DNA of 64,000 nucleotides. Origin: Aurantibacillus circumpalustris (GTDB lineage: Bacteria > Bacteroidota > Bacteroidia > B-17B0 > Aurantibacillaceae). This document shows, piece after piece, positions 1-62,061 of the stretch. The stretch spans positions 3,348,001 to 3,412,000 of the forward strand of contig NZ_CP121197.1 of the NCBI RefSeq assembly GCF_029625215.1, written 5' to 3'. Within the stretch, counting starts at the first letter, position 1. Each line of letters starts with the position of its first letter. The position numbers and the translations under genes are program-made. The notes under the pieces were generated by a model. The model had not been told where the DNA came from. It did no database searches and saw only the letters and a list, made by a program, of their open reading frames with translations.

Positions 1-2921
1 CCAGTGTATGTAGTTGCATTTGACAAAGGTTCTTGAGGTGAAGGTCCTGTCCATAAAAATCCAATAACAGGTAGATTACGAGTAAAGATACTTGTTGGAG
101 GTATTCCAGTAGAACTTCCATTCGTTAACACAACAGTATTTGTTAAACAAGTAAGAGAAGATGTTATTGGAGTCACGGCTGGTTTTGGTGCAAATACATT
201 CTGATAGATTGGAATAACCGATTGACTTTTACAAGTACTACTCAAGTTATTAACAATTAATGTGTAGGTATTAAGCACAGTTTGTGTTGCAATAGCGGTC
301 GGTGAAATTATAGCAGTGATTGTATCACCTTGTAATGTATTTATAGGTCCGACGAATTTCCAAGAATATTCAACACCAGATGTTATACTTTTCCCTTTAA
401 GCACAACTTTAGGATTATTACAATCTAAAATTTGCCTTTCAACTACTGCACTAATATCCGGAGCGAAAGTGTTTGATAGCACGGATATAGGAACCCTAGT
501 TTCACATAGAGAGACATTATCTTTGGTAATTACGGTATACGTACCTGGTACATTTACTGTATAAGTTTGAATGCCGCTAAGAGGTCCGTTTGGGGTAACG
601 GAGCTCTGACCAGGGCTTAATATTGTATAAGAAACTGCTCCACCCTGAGGTGTAGTATTCCCATTAACTATATTAACTCCTGCTATACTCTTTGTACCAC
701 AACCCAAAGTGAAGCTCTCAGGACTTAGGATACTAAAAGATGGAAATCCTTGGTTTGAAGTAACTGTAAACTCTTTACAGGTAACACATCCATTAACATC
801 GTTTTTTAAACAATAAGTAAAGTTACCAACCCCACCCGGAGTGTATTGGGTAGAATAAGAACTTGCCGAAAATGTACCACCATAAGGAGATAAAATTTGA
901 TGGGTAACATTTACGCTCGGGCTTGCGGTTACAATTACATTTGTTGCATTAGCACCAGCAAGGGTTCCGCAAGTTATACTTTGGAACGAAGGACTGATGG
1001 TAGATAAAGGAGCAACAATATTAACACCAATGGAAACTGTACGAGTTACCTGACAATTTGTAACAGGATCGACCGCGTTAACAGTGAAGTTTCCTGGATT
1101 TGAAATGCTGATGCTGCTTGTTGAAAAAGTCAAACTGGCACTGGCCCAAAAATAATTTAAACTGCCTCCGTTGTAAGAGTAGCTTGTCACTGCATCTAAA
1201 TTAACAACAGGGTATTCGCAGGTAATACTATTTGAATTAGTTGTGTTAACAATTGTAAATGATGGAATTGGAGGGGCCGAATTAATATTAACCGTAGTTG
1301 TAACTTTACAACCTAAAGGATCGCTAGCGGTTATTGATACAATATTAGGTGCTGGCCCTACCGGAAGGGTATAAGTTCCTTGAGTTGTTTGTTGATTCAA
1401 AGACAATGGAGTTGGAAACCAAAGTAATGAAGACGGATTAGCAGCAGATCCAGAAGGTGTTAATGAAACAACAGCTAATGTTCCTCCGCATTGCGCTTGA
1501 GCAACAGAAGCCCCCAAAAGAGGTGCTGGAGTAATGGTACTGTTTACCACGCGTTGTATTGGCGCACAAGAACCCTCTGGTGACATATAAAGTGTGTATT
1601 GAGCCGAAATATTTGTGATAATACACTGATTGGTCATTGAAGGAATAGAATAAGATTGGGGAAGATTTGGTCCTGCCCATGAATAAGGCCCTAATCCATC
1701 GGCCGCACAAATGGTAGCACCAGAAGCTCCGCATGTTGGCACGGTGACGTTTGAACCAGCATCGTAAGGGTTACCGTTACCATAAACTGTCATTGGCCCA
1801 CACTGTGCATCAAAATAAACTTTTCCATAGTGCCCTCCCGCGTTGCAATCTGAAGAAAGGATGTCAATTGTAATATTCTGACCAATATAAGCTGTTAAAT
1901 CCAATGAGTTTATCTTCCAAGGGTTATAAATAGTGTTTGCAGAGGTCGTACTAGTATACACAGCTCCAGTAAGTGCAACATTATAAACAATTGGAACGGT
2001 AGCTGTACATTGACTACTAGGCGCAGATACAGAAAAAACGGGACAAGGAAGAACTGCGTTTGTACTCGCGTTACTTAAGCGAATAATAAACCCACCAGCA
2101 TCACAACAGCCATGCCCAGGAGCAAATACTGAAATAAATGCAAATTGAAATAAAGCATTACTTGACGACACCGAAAATGTCTTCGATAATCTCTCAATAC
2201 TACGATCTCCAGTAACACCATCATTAAGTCTTAGCACTTTACTACCAAAAAACTGACCGTTTGTGATTTGAGGGTTAGCAGCAGAAGCAGCGACATTAGC
2301 CGGCCCTGATCCAAAAACCGAAAAAATAGGATACTGAGAACCAATTTGAGTATCAATAAAACCTCCAGGTGCACTACAATCAATAAGTTCGGAGTGTGCA
2401 GGTGGGGCAGGACAGCATCCTAAAAGATTACATGAATTTGCAGTTGATGGCACACCTGTAGGAAAATAAGGTGCCAACGTATTACTTGAAGGGGGAGGAT
2501 TAGAAATACCTCCGTTATAACCCTGAGTAATTGTCCAACCAGAAATTTGATTGGTTGCGGTAACAACAGCAGCTGTAGAAAGCTCGAAATCTTCATTTAC
2601 ACAGCCAGGGATAGCTGCTGGCCTATTTGCATTCAAATACTCAACTACATTCTCGTAAAATGAACTCGGCGGCCTTTTTATCAAGTGATATTTTACATCA
2701 ATGAACTGTCTTTTAAGTTCGTACATTCTAATTTTAAACTCAGACCCTAAAAACTGATCCTGAATGGCGGATGCCCTTGATGAAACCTCATCAAAACCAG
2801 CAAGGGAATCCTTGTCAAAATTATGATAGTACATAGGGTCGATCGTGAAATACTGTGCCTTAAACCCGCTGGACGCTAGGAATAAAGCTAAAATAATGGA
2901 TAATACTTTGTGTTTTTTCAT
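1..2921 (-). CDS. Giant secreted T9SS-type adhesin-like protein, 3' end beyond window
   Basis: About 973 codons are visible, starting at the ATG at 2919-2921 and running off the left edge with no stop. The N-terminus is a signal peptide (MKKHKVLSIILALFLASSG, ending FKAQ). Next comes a charged stretch of about 100 residues not seen in the other copies, then a lectin- or jelly-roll-like region (from about residue 100), then Cys-paired Ig-like repeats of about 80-100 residues. From about residue 640 it is clearly homologous to the proteins encoded at 54993-58136 and 58197-61439 (shared elements include VNVTHQILSP, TVITKDNVS and VPISVLSNTFAPDISA), but more divergent than those two are from each other. 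By analogy the missing end should carry a type-B T9SS (gliding-motility-associated) C-terminal domain; this is inferred, not seen. Likely role: cell-surface adhesion. Confidence 0.85.
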   Translation of the reverse strand, partial: MKKHKVLSIILALFLASSGFKAQYFTIDPMYYHNFDKDSLAGFDEVSSRASAIQDQFLGSEFKIRMYELKRQFIDVKYHLIKRPPSSFYENVVEYLNANRPAAIPGCVNEDFELSTAAVVTATNQISGWTITQGYNGGISNPPPSSNTLAPYFPTGVPSTANSCNLLGCCPAPPAHSELIDCSAPGGFIDTQIGSQYPIFSVFGSGPANVAASAANPQITNGQFFGSKVLRLNDGVTGDRSIERLSKTFSVSSSNALFQFAFISVFAPGHGCCDAGGFIIRLSNASTNAVLPCPVFSVSAPSSQCTATVPIVYNVALTGAVYTSTTSANTIYNPWKINSLDLTAYIGQNITIDILSSDCNAGGHYGKVYFDAQCGPMTVYGNGNPYDAGSNVTVPTCGASGATICAADGLGPYSWAGPNLPQSYSIPSMTNQCIITNISAQYTLYMSPEGSCAPIQRVVNSTITPAPLLGASVAQAQCGGTLAVVSLTPSGSAANPSSLLWFPTPLSLNQQTTQGTYTLPVGPAPNIVSITASDPLGCKVTTTVNINSAPPIPSFTIVNTTNSNSITCEYPVVNLDAVTSYSYNGGSLNYFWASASLTFSTSSISISNPGNFTVNAVDPVTNCQVTRTVSIGVNIVAPLSTISPSFQSITCGTLAGANATNVIVTASPSVNVTHQILSPYGGTFSASSYSTQYTPGGVGNFTYCLKNDVNGCVTCKEFTVTSNQGFPSFSILSPESFTLGCGTKSIAGVNIVNGNTTPQGGAVSYTILSPGQSSVTPNGPLSGIQTYTVNVPGTYTVITKDNVSLCETRVPISVLSNTFAPDISAVVERQILDCNNPKVVLKGKSITSGVEYSWKFVGPINTLQGDTITAIISPTAIATQTVLNTYTLIVNNLSSTCKSQSVIPIYQNVFAPKPAVTPITSSLTCLTNTVVLTNGSSTGIPPTSIFTRNLPVIGFLWTGPSPQEPLSNATTYT

Positions 2922-3337
2922 GAGATTTAGATTGTTTTTAAAACTACTCAAATTAATTTAATTTAACAAAAAGGCATCAATATTCATGCCAAGTTTTGTG
3001 AAAATGTTGGATCAGATGAATTTTATCGTCTTTTTCTACTATTTTTCAAATTTAAGAACCAGCAGTAAACCCAAAGAGCGTTTAAAATTCAGAGTTGGCT
3101 TAAGAACTTTGTAATAGAAATACCACAGACTAAAATCTGAAATTAACAGTATAAACGCAAAATAAGATTGTTAAAAAGTAAAATGGTTCTTTCTCTAAAA
3201 TAACAAGGTCACTTTGTTTAAAGCACTTATCTTTAGCGGCTGTTAATCGACACGAATATCATTATTTATTAATTTAATAAAAAAACCGGGTCGAAGTACT
3301 CAATATAGTCTATCAAATAATTAGAATAATATAGTTT
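2922..3337. other. Divergent intergenic region without a gene
   Basis: This 416 bp AT-rich region separates the divergent adhesin (2921, minus) and cystathionine beta-synthase (3338, plus) genes. I find no convincing ORF, tRNA, riboswitch fold or terminator. It must hold promoters for both genes, but I found no full TTTG-N19-TAnnTTTG match. The only clear structure is the imperfect palindrome at 2973-2990. Confidence 0.6.
2973..2990. promoter_or_regulatory. 18-bp imperfect palindrome, possible operator
   Basis: GGCATCAATATTCATGCC is a near-perfect dyad (16 of 18 positions symmetric), 52 bp upstream of the adhesin start. The size and position would suit a dimeric regulator, but no regulator is identified and one such palindrome can arise by chance in AT-rich DNA. 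Confidence 0.25.
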
Positions 3338-54992: not shown

Positions 54993-57900
54993 CTACCTAA
55001 ACAAACTTACGCTTCCTTTTTTATCGTATTCAGAGCCATCTCTGCCAGTAGCTTTTAGGATGTAAAAGTAAACTCCTTCGGCAGCATCTTTCCCAGATTG
55101 GTATTTTCCATTCCACTCAATGTTACCTGTTTCGCTGTCTGAATTAAAAATAATATGTCCCCATCTATCATAGATTAGCATTGAAATTTTACTCAAATTA
55201 GAAGACTTGAGAAAAAACAGATCATTAACGTTGTCACCGTTCGGAGTAAACACATTCGGTATTTCTAGCGAGGATGGAATATCAACATAAATACGGGCAG
55301 AAGCAGTATCCATACATGAACCTTTAGTTACATACATTGTAACAAGGTAAGAACCAGGCGAATTATAAATTGTTGTGGGAGAAAGGTTTGATACGTCTGT
55401 TACGCTACTGGTACCATTGGCAAAATTCCAATGTGCATTTATGTTTGAAGGTCCTGAATTTGAAACCGAATTATTATAAAATTTCACTTCGAGAGGTGCA
55501 AAACCCTTGGCTGGTAATACTTCAAGCCTGGCATCCAATGTTCCATTGATTACACTAACCTGTGCACTTGAAGCGCAACCGTTTTTAGGATTGTAACTTA
55601 GCACTTTGTATTGTCCTACCATATTTGTTGAAATATAACCGCCAGAATATGTCTGGGTAGCAGCTCCCGGAGGTGTACTCCAAGTATAAACGAAAGCTGT
55701 AGGATTGTCATCTATAAAAGGTCTTATGCTAACGGTGTCTTTACCGCATTCTAAAGCAAATGGAGCACGAACTATTGGTTTATTTAAGCTCGGATAGATT
55801 CTGTTATCATAAATAGTTGTGGTAGTTTTAGTGATACAACCGTTATTAAGGTCTTTTGCCGTTAGAGTATAAATTCCAGTAGTAGCACCAACATAAGTAG
55901 TTTGTACTTGCCCTTGTGTTTGAGGAGAAGGGCCATCCCATAAAAAGCCTATTACTGGCAGTTGATATGGAAAGCCAATTAACGGTGGTATGGTTGTTGA
56001 ACTTTGATTGGTTAACACTATAGTATGCGTTAAACAAGTCAAAGAACTTGAACCTCCCGAAATAACTGCTCGTGGTGGAAATAAATTTTGATAAATTGGT
56101 ATTACTGAATTACTCTTACAGGTACTGCTATTATTAGTTATTATCAAAGTGTAAGTTTGAACCAAAGTATTAGTCGGTGAAAGAGGTAACGAATTTGAAG
56201 TGATAGTATCTCCCTGCAGCGATCCAGGTGTACCTGAAAAATTCCATAAATAACTCACGTTGTTCGTAAGACTTTGTCCTTTCAAAGTAATTTTTGAAAC
56301 GTAACAATCTAATATCTGACGAGGAACAATGGCGCTTATATCTGGAGCAAACGTATTTGACAATATTGAAATTGGCGTTCTAGTCTCACAAAAAGAAACA
56401 TTGTCCTTTGTAATAACCGTCCATGTTCCCGGAACTGTTACAGTGTAAACGCTTATTCCACTTAAAATACCGCTTGGTGTAGCAGTAGAGGTTGGCGGAC
56501 CTATAATTGAATAAGAAACAGCGCCTCCGGCCGGAAGCGTAGTAGCCCCACCATCGATACTCACAATTGCTAGACTTTTAGAATTACACCCAAGTGTAAA
56601 ATTCTGCGGACTTGTGACGGTATAGGTTGGGAAACCCATAGTAGATGAAACTGTAAAGTTATTGCAAGAACTACACCCGTTTACATCGTTCACAACGCAG
56701 TGAGTAAAGGTTCCTATACCCCCAGGAGTATAGGCGATAGTATGTGATTGAGCTGTAAATGTACCTCCTTGTGGCGATAATATTTGATGGCTAACGTTTA
56801 TTGAAGGTGTTGCAGTTGATGTAACTGTTGCAATGGAACCTACATTGCAATTGATGGTTTGAAAAGTAGGTGACAGTACCGATGTTGGAGTGGTTACATT
56901 TATTCCGACTGTAAGTGTTTTTATAGAGGTACAACCAGAGACTGGATTCACAGCATTGATTGTCCAATTTCCTGTTGCTGTGCTTGTAAACTCAGCAAGA
57001 GTACCAGTTAATGGGGCAATAAGACCATTACTCCACGTATAATTATTTGTTGCTACAAGCGACGTAACCGTAATTGTTGGTTGATAACAAGTAATTACAT
57101 GATTTAAGTTTATTGGACTAAGCGCTATAATTGCTGGATCTGGAACAGGATCTAAGGCAAAAGATGCTGTAGTCGAGCAGCCACCTGCGGCTGTAATTGT
57201 TGCGGTGTATGGCCCTGCTGGTGTTGGGCCAGATAATGATGTTTGGGTAGGTGTTTGTATCCCATTTGGTAAGGATGCCCAAGTGACGGTATACCCAGGA
57301 GCAGGGATGGCAGGATAAAACGTTAAACCAAGACTAAACGTATTTACGGTGCTAGTACATGTAGTATTGGTAACTGTTGGCGCTACGGAAGGCTGAGGAT
57401 AAACAGAAACAGTAGACACCGCAGTTTGTGTTATGGGAATATTAAGATTATTAAGGCCTGTTATGTAAACCGTATAATCGGTTGTAACCGATGGGGTAAC
57501 CACGAAACTCCCTGTATTATTGGTTAAATTGCTGGGATTAATAGAATACGTTGGGTTTGTTAAACTACCTGAATTAGTAGCTACAACCGTGGCATTAATT
57601 CCTGCACAAATTTTAGAGTTACTCGAAAGCAAAGAACAATTAGTTGAACCAGTTCCAGCGTACTGAGTAAAAATAATATTTTGTTGCACGTTCGCGTAAT
57701 TGGTTATTAATACCATGTAATATTCACCAGTTATTCCGTTAGGTATATTTAATGTTTCTGTAAAACTACCAGAATAACTACAATCAACTGTGTTACCGGA
57801 TGTTAAGCTATTACAAATGCCAGCTAAACTACTAAATGGTCCCCAACAAATAAAATCCACATCCTGTCCAGGACCAATAGGAGAGGCAATTTGTCCTTGA

Positions 57901-58136
57901 ATCAAAATATCAAGATTACCAGAAGTACTGATTTGCAAATAATACCAAGCTGGATTTGGCGTACTTCCTAAGCAACCATAATTAGGCCCAACCTGGGCAG
58001 CTGTTATACTCGTTGTAGCAGGAAATGTAACTCCTGAAACGCCGCTAGCGCAAAAAGGTAATGCATTTTCACAACTTGTCTGTGCACTTAATACGTAAGT
58101 TGTTAAAATCAACACTAATGTTATTATTCTTTTCAT
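54993..58136 (-). CDS. T9SS-secreted Ig-like surface protein, paralogue A
   Basis: This 1047-residue protein has a signal peptide (MKRIITLVLILTTYVLSAQ). The N-terminal ~150-residue domain has the C-x-NALPFC opening common in Bacteroidota surface proteins. About nine Cys-paired Ig-like modules follow, then a type-B T9SS/gliding C-terminal domain (EIPNVFTPNGDNVNDLFFL, IYDRWG, IEWNGKYQSG, EGVYFYILKA). Its central portion (about residues 415-780) is nearly identical to that of the next gene upstream (58197). A PKD-like unit (FAPLEVKFYNNSVS) precedes the sorting domain. Probable outer-surface adhesin; no enzyme motif. Separated from the next gene by 60 bp; ends at the terminator at 54906-54932. 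Confidence 0.93.
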   Translation of the reverse strand: MKRIITLVLILTTYVLSAQTSCENALPFCASGVSGVTFPATTSITAAQVGPNYGCLGSTPNPAWYYLQISTSGNLDILIQGQIASPIGPGQDVDFICWGPFSSLAGICNSLTSGNTVDCSYSGSFTETLNIPNGITGEYYMVLITNYANVQQNIIFTQYAGTGSTNCSLLSSNSKICAGINATVVATNSGSLTNPTYSINPSNLTNNTGSFVVTPSVTTDYTVYITGLNNLNIPITQTAVSTVSVYPQPSVAPTVTNTTCTSTVNTFSLGLTFYPAIPAPGYTVTWASLPNGIQTPTQTSLSGPTPAGPYTATITAAGGCSTTASFALDPVPDPAIIALSPINLNHVITCYQPTITVTSLVATNNYTWSNGLIAPLTGTLAEFTSTATGNWTINAVNPVSGCTSIKTLTVGINVTTPTSVLSPTFQTINCNVGSIATVTSTATPSINVSHQILSPQGGTFTAQSHTIAYTPGGIGTFTHCVVNDVNGCSSCNNFTVSSTMGFPTYTVTSPQNFTLGCNSKSLAIVSIDGGATTLPAGGAVSYSIIGPPTSTATPSGILSGISVYTVTVPGTWTVITKDNVSFCETRTPISILSNTFAPDISAIVPRQILDCYVSKITLKGQSLTNNVSYLWNFSGTPGSLQGDTITSNSLPLSPTNTLVQTYTLIITNNSSTCKSNSVIPIYQNLFPPRAVISGGSSSLTCLTHTIVLTNQSSTTIPPLIGFPYQLPVIGFLWDGPSPQTQGQVQTTYVGATTGIYTLTAKDLNNGCITKTTTTIYDNRIYPSLNKPIVRAPFALECGKDTVSIRPFIDDNPTAFVYTWSTPPGAATQTYSGGYISTNMVGQYKVLSYNPKNGCASSAQVSVINGTLDARLEVLPAKGFAPLEVKFYNNSVSNSGPSNINAHWNFANGTSSVTDVSNLSPTTIYNSPGSYLVTMYVTKGSCMDTASARIYVDIPSSLEIPNVFTPNGDNVNDLFFLKSSNLSKISMLIYDRWGHIIFNSDSETGNIEWNGKYQSGKDAAEGVYFYILKATGRDGSEYDKKGSVSLFR
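55805..56890 (-). repeat. Central block shared with gene 58197 (copy 1)
   Basis: About 1.09 kb whose protein is almost unchanged in the second paralogue at 59011-60097, with DNA differences mostly at third codon positions. Shared stretches include ILSPQGGTF, TVITKDNVSFCETRTPIS and SNSVIPIYQNLFPP. Confidence 0.8.
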
Positions 58137-58196
58137 ATTATCAGGTTCTGGTTTATTGAAGGTACGAAACTTTTTAGTTCTTTTTCGATGATACTT

Positions 58197-61100
58197 TTAT
58201 CTAAATAAACTTAAGGTTCCCTTTTTGTTATATTCGTTTCCGTCTTTACCTTTTGCGGTAATAATATACAAATAGGTTCCATCAGCTGCCTCTTTCCCTG
58301 CTTTTGTTTTTCCATCCCAGGCTATATTACCAGTCGTGCTCAATAAATCATAAACTATATTGCCCCAGCGATCATAAATAATGATTGAAATTTCTGAAAG
58401 ATTTGTAGCCTTTACAAAAAACAAATCGTTTACATTGTCTCCATTAGGTGTAAACACATTCGGAATTTCTAATACAGACGGTATATCAACCACAATTGTT
58501 TTTGACATCGAGTCAACACATGTACCCTTTGTTGCAAACATCATTACTTTATATATACCGGGTAAAGAATAGGTTGTTGATGGAGAAAGATCTGAAGGAT
58601 TTGTTACACTTTGAGTATTATTGGCGAAATTCCAATATGCGTTTACATTTGCTGGCCCTAAACTAGACCTCGAATTGTTGTAAAAAGTTACTGCTAAAGG
58701 GGCAAAACCTTTAGAAGGCAAAACCTCAAAGTCAGCATTTAAAGTGCCATTAACAACACTTAAATCACCAACTGAGGCGCAACCGTTAAGGGTATTCGTA
58801 ATTGTTACTCTGTAATCTCCAATTTTAGTAACTTTTAAAGTAGCTGTATACGGAGGTGAAGAAATGGTAGTTCCAAAAGGAGCTAACCAGTTGTAAGTAT
58901 ATCCATTAGTAGAGCCTTCTAAAATAGGGCTAATGCTTACAAAGTCCGCACCGCAGTCTAGTGTATCTGGTGGCGGTGGTATTGGTTTATTTACACTTGG
59001 GTATTTTCTGTAGTCAAAAATAGTTGTTGTAGTTTTTGTGATACAACCGTTATTAAGATCTCTTGCCGTTAAAGTATAAATTCCTGTTGTCGCCGCTATG
59101 TAGGTACTTTGCAATTGGCCTTGCACTTGGGGAGATGGCCCATCCCATAAATAAGCGGTAACTGGAAGATTATATTGGAAACCACTTAATGGCGGTATAG
59201 TTGTTGAACTTTGATTAGTTAAAACTATGGTGTAGATTGAACAAGTTAACGAGCCTGTTCCCGCAGAAATTACAGCTTTTGGTGGAAATAAATTCTGATA
59301 AATTGGTATTACTGAATTACTCTTACAGGTACTATTATTATTGGTTACTACTAAAGTATAATTCTGAACCAAAGTATTCGTAGGTGAAAGAGATAACGAA
59401 TTTGCAGTAATTGTATCACCTTGAAGTGATCCTGGATTACCAGAAAAATTCCATAAATAACTCACATTATTTGTAAGACTTTGTCCCCTTAATGTAATTT
59501 TTGAAACGTAACAATCCAGTATCTGACGAGGCACTATGGCACTTACATCAGGGGTAAACGTATTTGATAATATCGAAATCGGTGTTCTGGTTTCACAAAA
59601 AGAAACATTGTCCTTGGTAATCACTGTCCATGTTCCTGGAACGGTAACCGTATACACACTAATTCCACTTAAAATACCGCTGGGTGTGGCTGTAGATGTT
59701 GGAGGTCCTATAATAGAATAAGACACCGCACCTCCGGGAGGAAGGGTAGTAGCACCGCCATCAATATTTACAATCGCAAAACTTTTAGAATTACATCCAA
59801 GTGTAAAATTCTGAGGACTAGTAACTGTATATGTTGGAAAACCTGAACTGGATGATACAGTAAATGTACTGCAGGAACTGCAACCATTTGCGTCATTCAC
59901 AACGCAGTGAGTAAACGTTCCTATACCCCCAGGGTTATAGGCTATTGTATGCGATTGTACAGAAAAAGTGCCACCTTGGGGTGATAATATTTGATGAGTG
60001 ACATTTATTGAAGGTGTCGCAGCAGATGTAACGGTAGAAATAGAACCTATGTTGCAATTAATGGTTTGAAAAGTAGGAGACAGCACGGATGCTGGCATGG
60101 TAGTGTTTTGCAAAATTGCAAACGTTTGACTTGCAACACAACCAGAAACGGGATTTTGTGCAATGAGTAGCCAGTTACCAGCTAAGGTAGAGGTAAATAC
60201 TCCAACTGGCCCATTAAAATTAGCGACGTTACTGCTCCATGTATAGTTGTATGCAGCGTTTACCGGAGTCAGTGTTACGTCTGAACGACAAGTAATCACA
60301 TGCGAATTACCAGGTGGGTTAAGCACAATTATAGCTGGATCGGGCAAAGGATTTACACTAAAACTAGTTGTGGTTGAACAACCACTGGCGGTTGTTAGTG
60401 TAGCGGTGTATAATCCAGGACTAATTCCACCAGTAAAAGTAGTTTGAGTTGAAGATCCTACTCCATTAGGAATTGGGGACCAACTCACCGAATAACTTGG
60501 ACTAGATCCGACAGGATTAAAAAATAAATTTAAATTAACTGCATTAACTGTGTTTGTGCAAGTTGTATTGGTTACTGTTGGAGCTACAGTCGGCTGAGGA
60601 TTCACAGTAACGGTTGAAACAGACGTGATGGTTTGAACAGCATTTACTGAATTAAGGCCTGTTATAAAGGTAGTGTATGAAGTTGTAACCGAAGGTGTAA
60701 CAACAAAACTTCCAGTAGTGTTAGTTGTGCCACCTGGTTGAATTGAAAAAACAGGATTAGCTAATGCAGCAAAATTAACAGGAAAGATAGTTGCGCTTGA
60801 CCCATGACACATTGCATAGTTAGGGTTACAATTTGGATTACATGATAAACTTGCAGTACCTAGACTCAGAAAACTAACTAGAGTATTAACACCTGAAAAA
60901 TTTGAAATACAAATTACAAATTGTTGACATGCGTTAACTGATAACGGATCACCAAAATTAGAGGTATTCCCTCCAACACTAGTAATATTACCAGCTGAAG
61001 CAATACCAGTTCCTCCGGCACTACTTCCATTCCAATTGCAGCGAATTGGCGGGAGTGTATTATTGAAAATACCTGCACAGGCCGTAGGGGAATAAGGCCA

Positions 61101-61439
61101 CATAGACCAGTCATAAAACCCTGCCTGAGGATTTGCACTATTTCCAGCCCCGAAAACAAACTCGAGCATACCCGCATTGCCAATAGTAAGTAATAACCAT
61201 TGCGGATTTAACTCCCCTTGGTTCAAACAGCCAGAATTTGGAGGAAATGGGTTAGTAGTAGGGTTTGAAACCGTGCTAGTGTTGGAAAAATCTACAACGC
61301 TTCCAGGACCACTATTAGTAAAAAAGGTGAAACTTGGAGTACTGCATAAAGGAATGGCGTTGATACAATTGTCGTTTATTTGGGAAAATCCATTAAACAG
61401 GCTAAGAGAAAAAAACAGAAAGAAGATACACTTTTTCAT
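58197..61439 (-). CDS. T9SS-secreted Ig-like surface protein, paralogue B
   Basis: This 1080-residue protein has a signal peptide (MKKCIFFLFFSLSLFNGFSQ), a distinct N-terminal domain (INDNCINAIPLCSTPS, then Asn/Gly-rich) and the same Ig-repeat core as paralogue A. The type-B C-terminal domain is also shared (VFTPNGDNVNDLFFVKATN, IYDRWGNIVYD, WDGKTKAGK). N-terminal domains of A and B differ strongly, while core and tail are close. That pattern fits tandem duplication with a swapped or diverged binding head. The start at 61439 is 10 bp downstream of a small secreted-protein gene, indicating one transcript through both paralogues. Confidence 0.93.
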   Translation of the reverse strand: MKKCIFFLFFSLSLFNGFSQINDNCINAIPLCSTPSFTFFTNSGPGSVVDFSNTSTVSNPTTNPFPPNSGCLNQGELNPQWLLLTIGNAGMLEFVFGAGNSANPQAGFYDWSMWPYSPTACAGIFNNTLPPIRCNWNGSSAGGTGIASAGNITSVGGNTSNFGDPLSVNACQQFVICISNFSGVNTLVSFLSLGTASLSCNPNCNPNYAMCHGSSATIFPVNFAALANPVFSIQPGGTTNTTGSFVVTPSVTTSYTTFITGLNSVNAVQTITSVSTVTVNPQPTVAPTVTNTTCTNTVNAVNLNLFFNPVGSSPSYSVSWSPIPNGVGSSTQTTFTGGISPGLYTATLTTASGCSTTTSFSVNPLPDPAIIVLNPPGNSHVITCRSDVTLTPVNAAYNYTWSSNVANFNGPVGVFTSTLAGNWLLIAQNPVSGCVASQTFAILQNTTMPASVLSPTFQTINCNIGSISTVTSAATPSINVTHQILSPQGGTFSVQSHTIAYNPGGIGTFTHCVVNDANGCSSCSTFTVSSSSGFPTYTVTSPQNFTLGCNSKSFAIVNIDGGATTLPPGGAVSYSIIGPPTSTATPSGILSGISVYTVTVPGTWTVITKDNVSFCETRTPISILSNTFTPDVSAIVPRQILDCYVSKITLRGQSLTNNVSYLWNFSGNPGSLQGDTITANSLSLSPTNTLVQNYTLVVTNNNSTCKSNSVIPIYQNLFPPKAVISAGTGSLTCSIYTIVLTNQSSTTIPPLSGFQYNLPVTAYLWDGPSPQVQGQLQSTYIAATTGIYTLTARDLNNGCITKTTTTIFDYRKYPSVNKPIPPPPDTLDCGADFVSISPILEGSTNGYTYNWLAPFGTTISSPPYTATLKVTKIGDYRVTITNTLNGCASVGDLSVVNGTLNADFEVLPSKGFAPLAVTFYNNSRSSLGPANVNAYWNFANNTQSVTNPSDLSPSTTYSLPGIYKVMMFATKGTCVDSMSKTIVVDIPSVLEIPNVFTPNGDNVNDLFFVKATNLSEISIIIYDRWGNIVYDLLSTTGNIAWDGKTKAGKEAADGTYLYIITAKGKDGNEYNKKGTLSLFR
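59011..60097 (-). repeat. Central block shared with gene 54993 (copy 2)
   Basis: Second copy of the 1.09-kb block at 55805-56890, about 3.2 kb away in the same orientation. Read by eye the DNA is roughly 80-85% alike while the protein differs at few positions. I have not counted exactly. Confidence 0.8.
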
Positions 61440-61449
61440 TGGGTTTATT

Positions 61450-61917
61450 TTAACGAGTAATTAAATGATGAATAGAACCTAAAACATTTTGAGAACTGAG
61501 GTTTTGATAAACCCCACCACCATTAGAATCAAAAACAGCATTCGTGATACTTGTATCTAAATCCTCAAAATCGCTCAGTTTAAAAGGAATTGTCTTAGTT
61601 ATTCCATCTTTTGCATAAGTTACAAGCGCAGGACTCGATAAATTATTTTTGTTGATTGAAACTACAATCAAGCCATTTCTTCCACCTTTCAAAAAAGAGG
61701 ACTCGTATACCGAATATGCTTTTTCGAACTGCTTATTTGTCTCACGACTTTCTAAGTTGTCAAGGCTCCAAATGTTAAAAGCAATGAGTTTGTTTTCTGT
61801 GCTTATTTCTGAATGAGTTTCGTTAATTAATTTTTTAATGTTTTGATAAAGATTGTTTTGAGCACTTGCAGAAAAGGTTGCAACAGCAAATGATACGGTG
61901 ATAAAAAAAATTTTCAT
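61450..61917 (-). CDS. Small secreted protein upstream of the paralogue pair
   Basis: This 155-residue protein starts from ATG at 61917 (MKIFFITVSFAVATFSASAQ signal); the frame runs on to 61995 but the extension precedes the signal peptide and is rejected. The mature part opens with a helix (YQNIKKLINETHSEISTEN), then a strand LIVVSINKN and a Gly-rich segment. A weak resemblance to TPM/thioredoxin-like folds is not enough for a call. It is 10 bp upstream of paralogue B, so it is probably expressed with the surface proteins and could be an accessory or chaperone; this is inference. Confidence 0.72.
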   Translation of the reverse strand: MKIFFITVSFAVATFSASAQNNLYQNIKKLINETHSEISTENKLIAFNIWSLDNLESRETNKQFEKAYSVYESSFLKGGRNGLIVVSINKNNLSSPALVTYAKDGITKTIPFKLSDFEDLDTSITNAVFDSNGGGVYQNLSSQNVLGSIHHLITR

Positions 61918-62061
61918 ATTGAAATAAGTATTAAAGTTCTGAATAGTCCTGCCAATGTAATGAACTATTTCACTTTGATCAAGGACATACGTCAATTTTC
62001 GACAAATATTCTATTTAAAATATTTAGAATTTGTAATTATCTAATACAAATTCCGAGCCAA

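Follow-up and report, generated by a model that had tools for sequence, protein, structure and literature searches.

An ancient tandem pair of predicted type IX surface-protein genes with conserved heads and a stalk best explained by old gene conversion

The 64,000-nucleotide stretch of Aurantibacillus circumpalustris DNA analysed here (the window; NZ_CP121197.1, positions 3,348,001 to 3,412,000) carries two large tandem paralogues, A and B, whose proteins are very similar in the middle and very different at the front, and the question raised by this locus is how the shared middle came to be so alike. Gene A (54993-58136, minus strand, 1047 aa) is predicted from its sequence to encode a type B surface protein of the type IX secretion system (T9SS), with a head, an immunoglobulin (Ig)-like stalk, a PKD domain and a CHU_C sorting domain, and gene B (58197-61439, minus strand, 1080 aa) lies 60 bases upstream of A. 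An earlier note on this DNA attributed the pattern to one duplication followed by strong selection on a fixed stalk and divergence of a variable binding end. The origin of the pair by duplication is supported. The likeness of the core, in contrast, is younger than the gene pair; its best explanation is old partial gene conversion rather than conservation since the duplication. Below, G000 denotes the source genome (4.6 Mb, one contig) and the other G-numbers denote the genomes of relatives.

Within G000, protein identity between A and B in 60-codon windows is 85-95% over A residues 443-682 and 23-34% over roughly residues 1-200. The homogenised core of A spans residues ~421-790 (55767-56876, minus strand), where Ig-like repeats can be recognised by eye, and its partner tract in B, placed by sequence windows and the core alignment, covers 58975-60083 on the same strand; these window edges are very close to the block coordinates proposed in the earlier note (55805-56890 and 59011-60097). 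The description of the two core proteins as almost the same applies to the centre, which is 95% identical, the overall figure for the 337-338 core residues being 87%. The heads are indeed unlike, with 25% identity in G000, but they are homologous, sharing 26 invariant columns in the alignment of A and B over the head and first Ig-like domain. The core DNA differs mostly at silent sites, as had been noticed: two central 60-codon windows have a proportion of synonymous differences (pS) of 0.53-0.55 and of nonsynonymous differences (pN) of 0.02, and a codon model with bootstrap intervals gave, for residues 421-790, a synonymous divergence (dS) of 1.33 (1.06-1.91), a nonsynonymous divergence (dN) of 0.068 and a dN/dS of 0.052 (0.031-0.073). 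The strong selection claimed for the core is therefore purifying, a dN/dS near 1 being ruled out (twice the difference in log-likelihood, lnL, of 308 when tested against 1), and the dS of 1.33 represents real drift, which also excludes recent gene conversion without synonymous change in the G000 core. The flanks gave a dS of 3.37 over residues 171-420 (interval from 1.90) and of 2.80 over residues 791-1047 (from 1.95); only the lower interval ends are quoted, as upper ends, like dS values near 37 or 78, mark the limit of the optimiser and are not estimates. Of the fourfold-degenerate sites, 79 of 170 in the core are identical, whereas codon usage predicts 32% at saturation (p = 1e-4); outside the core the count is 62 of 174 (p = 0.33).

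Comparison between species inverts the polarity of a fixed stalk and a variable binding end. Region means were computed from 26 aligned A and B proteins, with eight genomes contributing both genes; matches of more than 700 columns starting before residue 80 were kept (26 of 40 rows), and contig-end truncated genes (for example in G003 and G015), other head types and the B proteins of G013 and G023 were left out. The head (A residues 1-170) has a mean identity of 66.6% among A proteins and 69.5% among B proteins, whereas A heads compared with B heads reach 26.8% between genomes and 26.7% within them. For the core (residues 426-760), identity between species is 38.8% among A proteins, 41.8% among B proteins and 39.1% for A against B, yet A and B of one genome share a mean of 74.4% (range 59-87%, eight genomes). 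The head is thus the conserved, gene-specific part, and the core varies across species yet is common to the genes of one genome; paralogues are closer than orthologues in the core but not in the head. Averaged over genomes, homogenisation also reaches the tail (66.0% identity within genomes against 39-45% between them) and the sorting domain (78.7% against 60-63%); in G000, where the values are 54% and 67%, it does not. A view based on two genes can therefore mislead, since the block that looks most constrained in one genome is the faster-changing one between species.

The same conflict was seen in trees of 27 proteins that include ten genomes with both genes. In the head tree, A and B form separate clades with support of 100/100, A and B of the same genome are sisters in none of the ten pairs, and a tree constrained to join the two G000 heads is rejected (p = 3e-79); the split between A and B heads predates the diversification of the genus. 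For the cores, open reading frames (ORFs) matching more than 270 of 338 core residues were collected, which gave 80 sequences, 27 of them used in the A/B core tree; the A protein of G014, which is part of the region means, was dropped from this set. The core tree contradicts the head tree, with the G000 A and B cores being sisters at 100/100 and A and B sisters in seven of the ten genomes (those of G000, G007, G013, G021 and G023 are starred in our tree). The six cores of the close relatives G005, G018 and G020 form one clade at 100/100. A clade of all A cores is rejected, being 1408 lnL units worse (approximately unbiased, AU, test, p = 1e-31). Because core dS lies below that of the flanks and the A and B cores are sisters in seven of ten genomes, the core likeness is younger than the gene pair, and its explanation as selection maintained after duplication is not supported. 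One duplication with a selection-fixed stalk and diverging heads would account for a core dN/dS of 0.052 with real silent drift and for A and B heads that are 27% identical, but it is refuted by the orthologue comparison: heads are better conserved between species than cores (67-70% versus 39-42%), the all-A core clade and the G000 head pair are both rejected, and core dS is under that of both flanks. We regard this account as very improbable.

We then mapped where along the protein A and B of one genome resemble each other more than their orthologues. In G000, with 40-residue windows, the block in which A-B identity exceeds that to every aligned orthologue has edges near A residues 401-420 and 790-800, and a second stretch of this kind covers residues 861-920; the recombination breakpoints sought at the block ends were found in this way, using the genomes of relatives. 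A map of 50 windows of 60 residues was made for the ten genomes, G005, G018 and G020 not being compared with each other. In all ten genomes orthologues are the closer match in the first ten windows (starts 1-181); beyond these, A and B are closest to each other in 7 to 36 windows, depending on the genome: 24 of 50 in G000, 36 of 50 in G007 and 33 of 50 in G005, where the stretch runs to the C-terminus, with the fewest in G009 (7 of 50) and G016 (10 of 50). These lineage-specific extents fit separate copying events. Windows and head tree together delimit a bounded tract with edges whose flanks keep the old history. A divergent segment of the G018 A protein (residues 443-600) had no recognisable donor, the best match elsewhere in G018 being 55% identical.

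The head/core conflict would also be predicted if the heads were the moving part, i.e., if the whole gene were re-duplicated in each lineage and the other head regained by recombination or transfer. Such a history would need repeated identical head swaps, yet the order B then A is kept, with the genes adjacent, in eight of the ten genomes with both (in G013 and G023 they lie on separate contigs). The G000 protein past residue 800 is also mostly outside the block, so that an inner tract with two edges is the simpler description. Mobile heads are already disfavoured, and we consider them the least credible of the alternatives.

Taken together, our results favour, with a probability of about 85%, an ancient tandem pair in which each gene has conserved its own head and the stalk has been homogenised by repeated old ectopic gene conversion under purifying selection. 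A and B would be surface proteins exported by the T9SS, each with a predicted jelly-roll head of collagen-binding/PPC-like type that stays steady across the genus and presumably binds a fixed ligand, and with a stalk of Ig-like repeats between the head and the C-terminal sorting domain. This stalk would have been copied between A and B in most sampled lineages, with other family members occasionally serving as donor or recipient, probably by homologous recombination; after copying, purifying selection (dN/dS ~0.05) would hold the protein while silent sites drift. In G000 the last copying, over residues ~421-790, would be old (dS ~1.3), although younger than the split recorded in the flanks.

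Several observations weigh against this interpretation. Two of the seven core sister pairs are weakly supported (G009, 82/81; G016, 79/52), and the A and B cores of G016 are saturated at silent sites. In the clade of G005, G018 and G020 the cores group by gene rather than by genome, with the three B cores together, and when these three genomes are compared with each other paralogues are not closer than orthologues; this implies that no whole-core copying has occurred since the trio split and that homogenisation preceded the split. The dS intervals of the core and of residues 171-420 touch, so the contrast at silent sites is by itself modest. Fourfold sites in the core and outside it differ with a Fisher test p of 0.048, and those of the tail (residues 791-957, 22 of 47 identical) are indistinguishable from those of the core. 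Copying may have run in either direction between A and B. Among 33 within-genome core pairs at least 60% identical the lowest dS is 1.22, so no young tract was seen and copying was never caught underway. Finally, we infer adhesion as the function of the head from its predicted fold only.

A different reason for likeness within a genome would be matching selection, in which contacts among the stalks of A, B and other family members, or with a common partner, would require the same sequence to be kept within a species. This could explain why A-B identity exceeds that to all compared orthologues over parts of the core in all ten genomes despite silent drift, and B and A do lie side by side in one orientation. 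We compared pairs among the 80 cores with at least 60% identity over at least 200 codons, using those with dS below 2.5 for dN/dS; between-genome dS is saturated except for the closest genomes, and since pairs share sequences the p value is only indicative. Median dN/dS was 0.083 within genomes (0.040-0.133, n = 15), not lower than the 0.064 of between-genome pairs with the same head type (0.022-0.118, n = 10; p = 0.33), and 0.095 for between-genome pairs with other heads (n = 17); five head pairs of the G005, G018 and G020 set gave 0.014-0.099. Constraint on cores is no stronger within genomes than between them, and copying followed by ordinary purifying selection therefore suffices, with no need for a matching force. 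Likeness also decays, within-genome pairs with dS above 3 being 60-72% identical with a single exception at 80%. Matching selection appears improbable on these grounds. The idea that the G000 core is under unusually strong constraint was likewise rejected, its dN/dS of 0.052 falling inside the range of 0.022-0.118 for between-genome cores with the same head.

Between-genome core pairs reach dS values as low as 0.41, and the lack of young within-genome copies is unexplained; rare events, or short-read assemblies breaking at near-identical repeats, could lie behind it. Contigs C8, C15 and C16 of G005 end within family members. We examined contig-end fragments of G005 and G020 as candidates for very young copies and rejected them, the best pairs being 85% identical over 1186 bases and 84% over 576.

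Homogenisation extends beyond the A/B pair. The A core finds 14 places in G000, 12 of them near full length, one of three quarters and one short, attached to heads of the A/B type, of type H1, of DUF7948 (two genes) or to little or no head; single-linkage clustering lumps the A and B heads as H0, and their division comes from the alignment and head tree. A third core gene, H1-headed, runs off the edge of the window (3-2951, minus strand; full gene G000:C1:3347124-3350921), and its core shares 63% identity with the A core. It lies ~52 kb from A, and an H1-headed gene is found directly beside the B-A pair in G016, G018 and G020. Seven of the G000 copies have a type B tail, and three of those tested for it have the type A tail TIGR04183; these three are neighbours (L042 5722-11843, G000:C1 ~3290.7-3296.8 kb), so the stalk module occurs with either class of T9SS tail. 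The two G000 paralogues with DUF7948 heads are at L038 2035-6522 and L039 3727-8571, and their cores, unlike those of A and B, cluster with cores of other genomes.

The tree of all 80 cores has a starred clade (95) made up of four G000 cores, namely A, B and two with H1 heads. The five G021 cores lie in one clade together with the two from G002, and in G002 the A and H1 cores are sisters. By contrast, the H2 and H3 cores of G000 cluster with those of other genomes, even though G016 and G017 each have a tandem H2 pair that groups by genome. Genome labels for the 22 genomes change 42 times on this tree, compared with 63 when shuffled and a minimum of 21. These counts and mixed groupings suggest that homogenisation is widespread but not family-wide. 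At 1e-10 the core profile matches 12 of 149 class genomes, G000 included, and near-full-length matches among these 149 occur in genomes of the same genus only; the core has no Pfam match. It is tempting to speculate that the Ig-like core is a species-specific module, homogenised within lineages, joined to several fixed heads and to either T9SS tail, and kept alike by stalk packing or binding, although we think this unlikely. If true, it would give each species a private surface signature.

The signal peptide (by eye) and head of A occupy residues 1-170 (57627-58136, minus strand) and are predicted to form a jelly-roll of collagen-binding/PPC-like type; those of B (residues ~1-205, 60825-61439, minus strand) are homologous to the A head yet distinct. 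An AlphaFold2 model of the A head and first Ig-like domain, built from 17 sequences, had a predicted local distance difference test score (pLDDT) of 75.6. The top Foldseek ranks for this model were an Epf adhesin domain and fragments of GhpA, the grappling hook protein of Aureispira, with template-modelling (TM) scores of 0.18-0.26. After realignment the best fit was the collagen-binding domain of ColH from Clostridium histolyticum (Z 10.2, root-mean-square deviation 2.6, 107 aligned residues), followed by other collagen-binding and protease C-terminal domains (Z 9.3-9.1). Model residues 148-228 fitted PKD/Ig domains at Z ~8, a level common by chance. The head profile had no match among sequences in the Protein Data Bank (PDB), and a PDB search with the full sequences returned one weak match for A, in the PKD region, and none for B. 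The core model, all beta, was of too low quality for use (pLDDT 53). The likely, though unproven, reading is of a binding head carried by an Ig-like stalk.

At the other end, the PKD domain of A (55290-55460, minus strand; PF00801, 8.3e-07, above cut-off) precedes a type B sorting domain (CHU_C/TIGR04131) at 55005-55265, and B has its counterpart at 58212-58469, both on the minus strand and both above the curated cut-offs of Pfam and NCBIfam (E-values for A and B of 5.5e-20 and 1.2e-19 with PF13585, and of 1e-11 and 2.2e-12 with TIGR04131). G000 has 48 CHU_C matches over cut-off and 19 genes of the PorP/SprF family, none of which adjoins A or B. Type B C-terminal domain (CTD) proteins such as SprB and PG1035 are bound by PorP/SprF-like proteins in an anchoring model, according to one report (PMC9143113). 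The comparison of A and B with SprB and PG1035 covered this sorting class, which they share; they differ in having no adjoining PorP/SprF gene.

Concerted evolution, in which paralogues resemble each other more than they resemble orthologues along a limited stretch (PMC2720389), is known, and A and B are a clear new instance among paralogous surface proteins. They fit the bounded likeness, but the tempo is slow and episodic, with no young tract. RgpA, Kgp and HagA of Porphyromonas gingivalis resemble A and B in being T9SS proteins with different fronts and modules shared within one genome (cleaved adhesin, CAD, domains K1-K3 and DUF2436). One paper reports that identical repeats within and between hagA, rgpA and kgp broke assemblies, and it invokes gene conversion for variation of P. 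gingivalis surface proteins (PMC5266723). Unlike these proteins, A and B have no Pfam match to CAD or DUF2436 at E-values up to 1 and carry a type B tail, and the block they share is an Ig-like stalk whose dS exceeds 1. Another parallel is offered by RF1 and RF2, ancient specialised paralogues with one shared domain copied between them, for which partial conversion in Bacteria including Bacteroidia was found by sliding windows and trees (PMC4530459). RF1 and RF2 are cytoplasmic translation factors with two reported cases, whereas A and B are surface proteins affected in several lineages of one genus. In the literature searched we recognised no report on the A/B core family. The locus provides a bacterial case, seen in ten genomes with both genes, of ancient specialised heads whose stalks have been rewritten in concert. 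Whole-protein similarity can fail as a guide to orthology or function for such T9SS giants, and the head is the better guide.

In a whole-genome search that covered 41 genomes, including 25 from the genus (G000 among them), relatives of A were found throughout the genus. Separate searches for the A and B heads each covered 25 genomes, including 16 from the genus. Matches of at least 60% identity to the A head were present in 12 of these 16 and to the B head in 8 of them, a patchiness due partly to contig breaks. The B orthologue of G020 (G020:C103:2796-6047) was reported with one in-frame TGA, which may reflect a broken gene or an error in assembly.

A small ORF lies directly upstream of B (61450-61995, minus strand; 181 aa as listed), with a signal peptide by eye that starts from an inner ATG at ~61917; it has no Pfam match and no NCBIfam match over cut-off. 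No relative of it was found in the seven searched loci that have A without B, one of which, in G002, has just 389 bases upstream of A; the search left out three loci with B alone. A relative stands directly upstream of B in all seven searched loci of relatives where B is beside A, and from its position the small ORF is likely to be an operon partner of the B-A pair.

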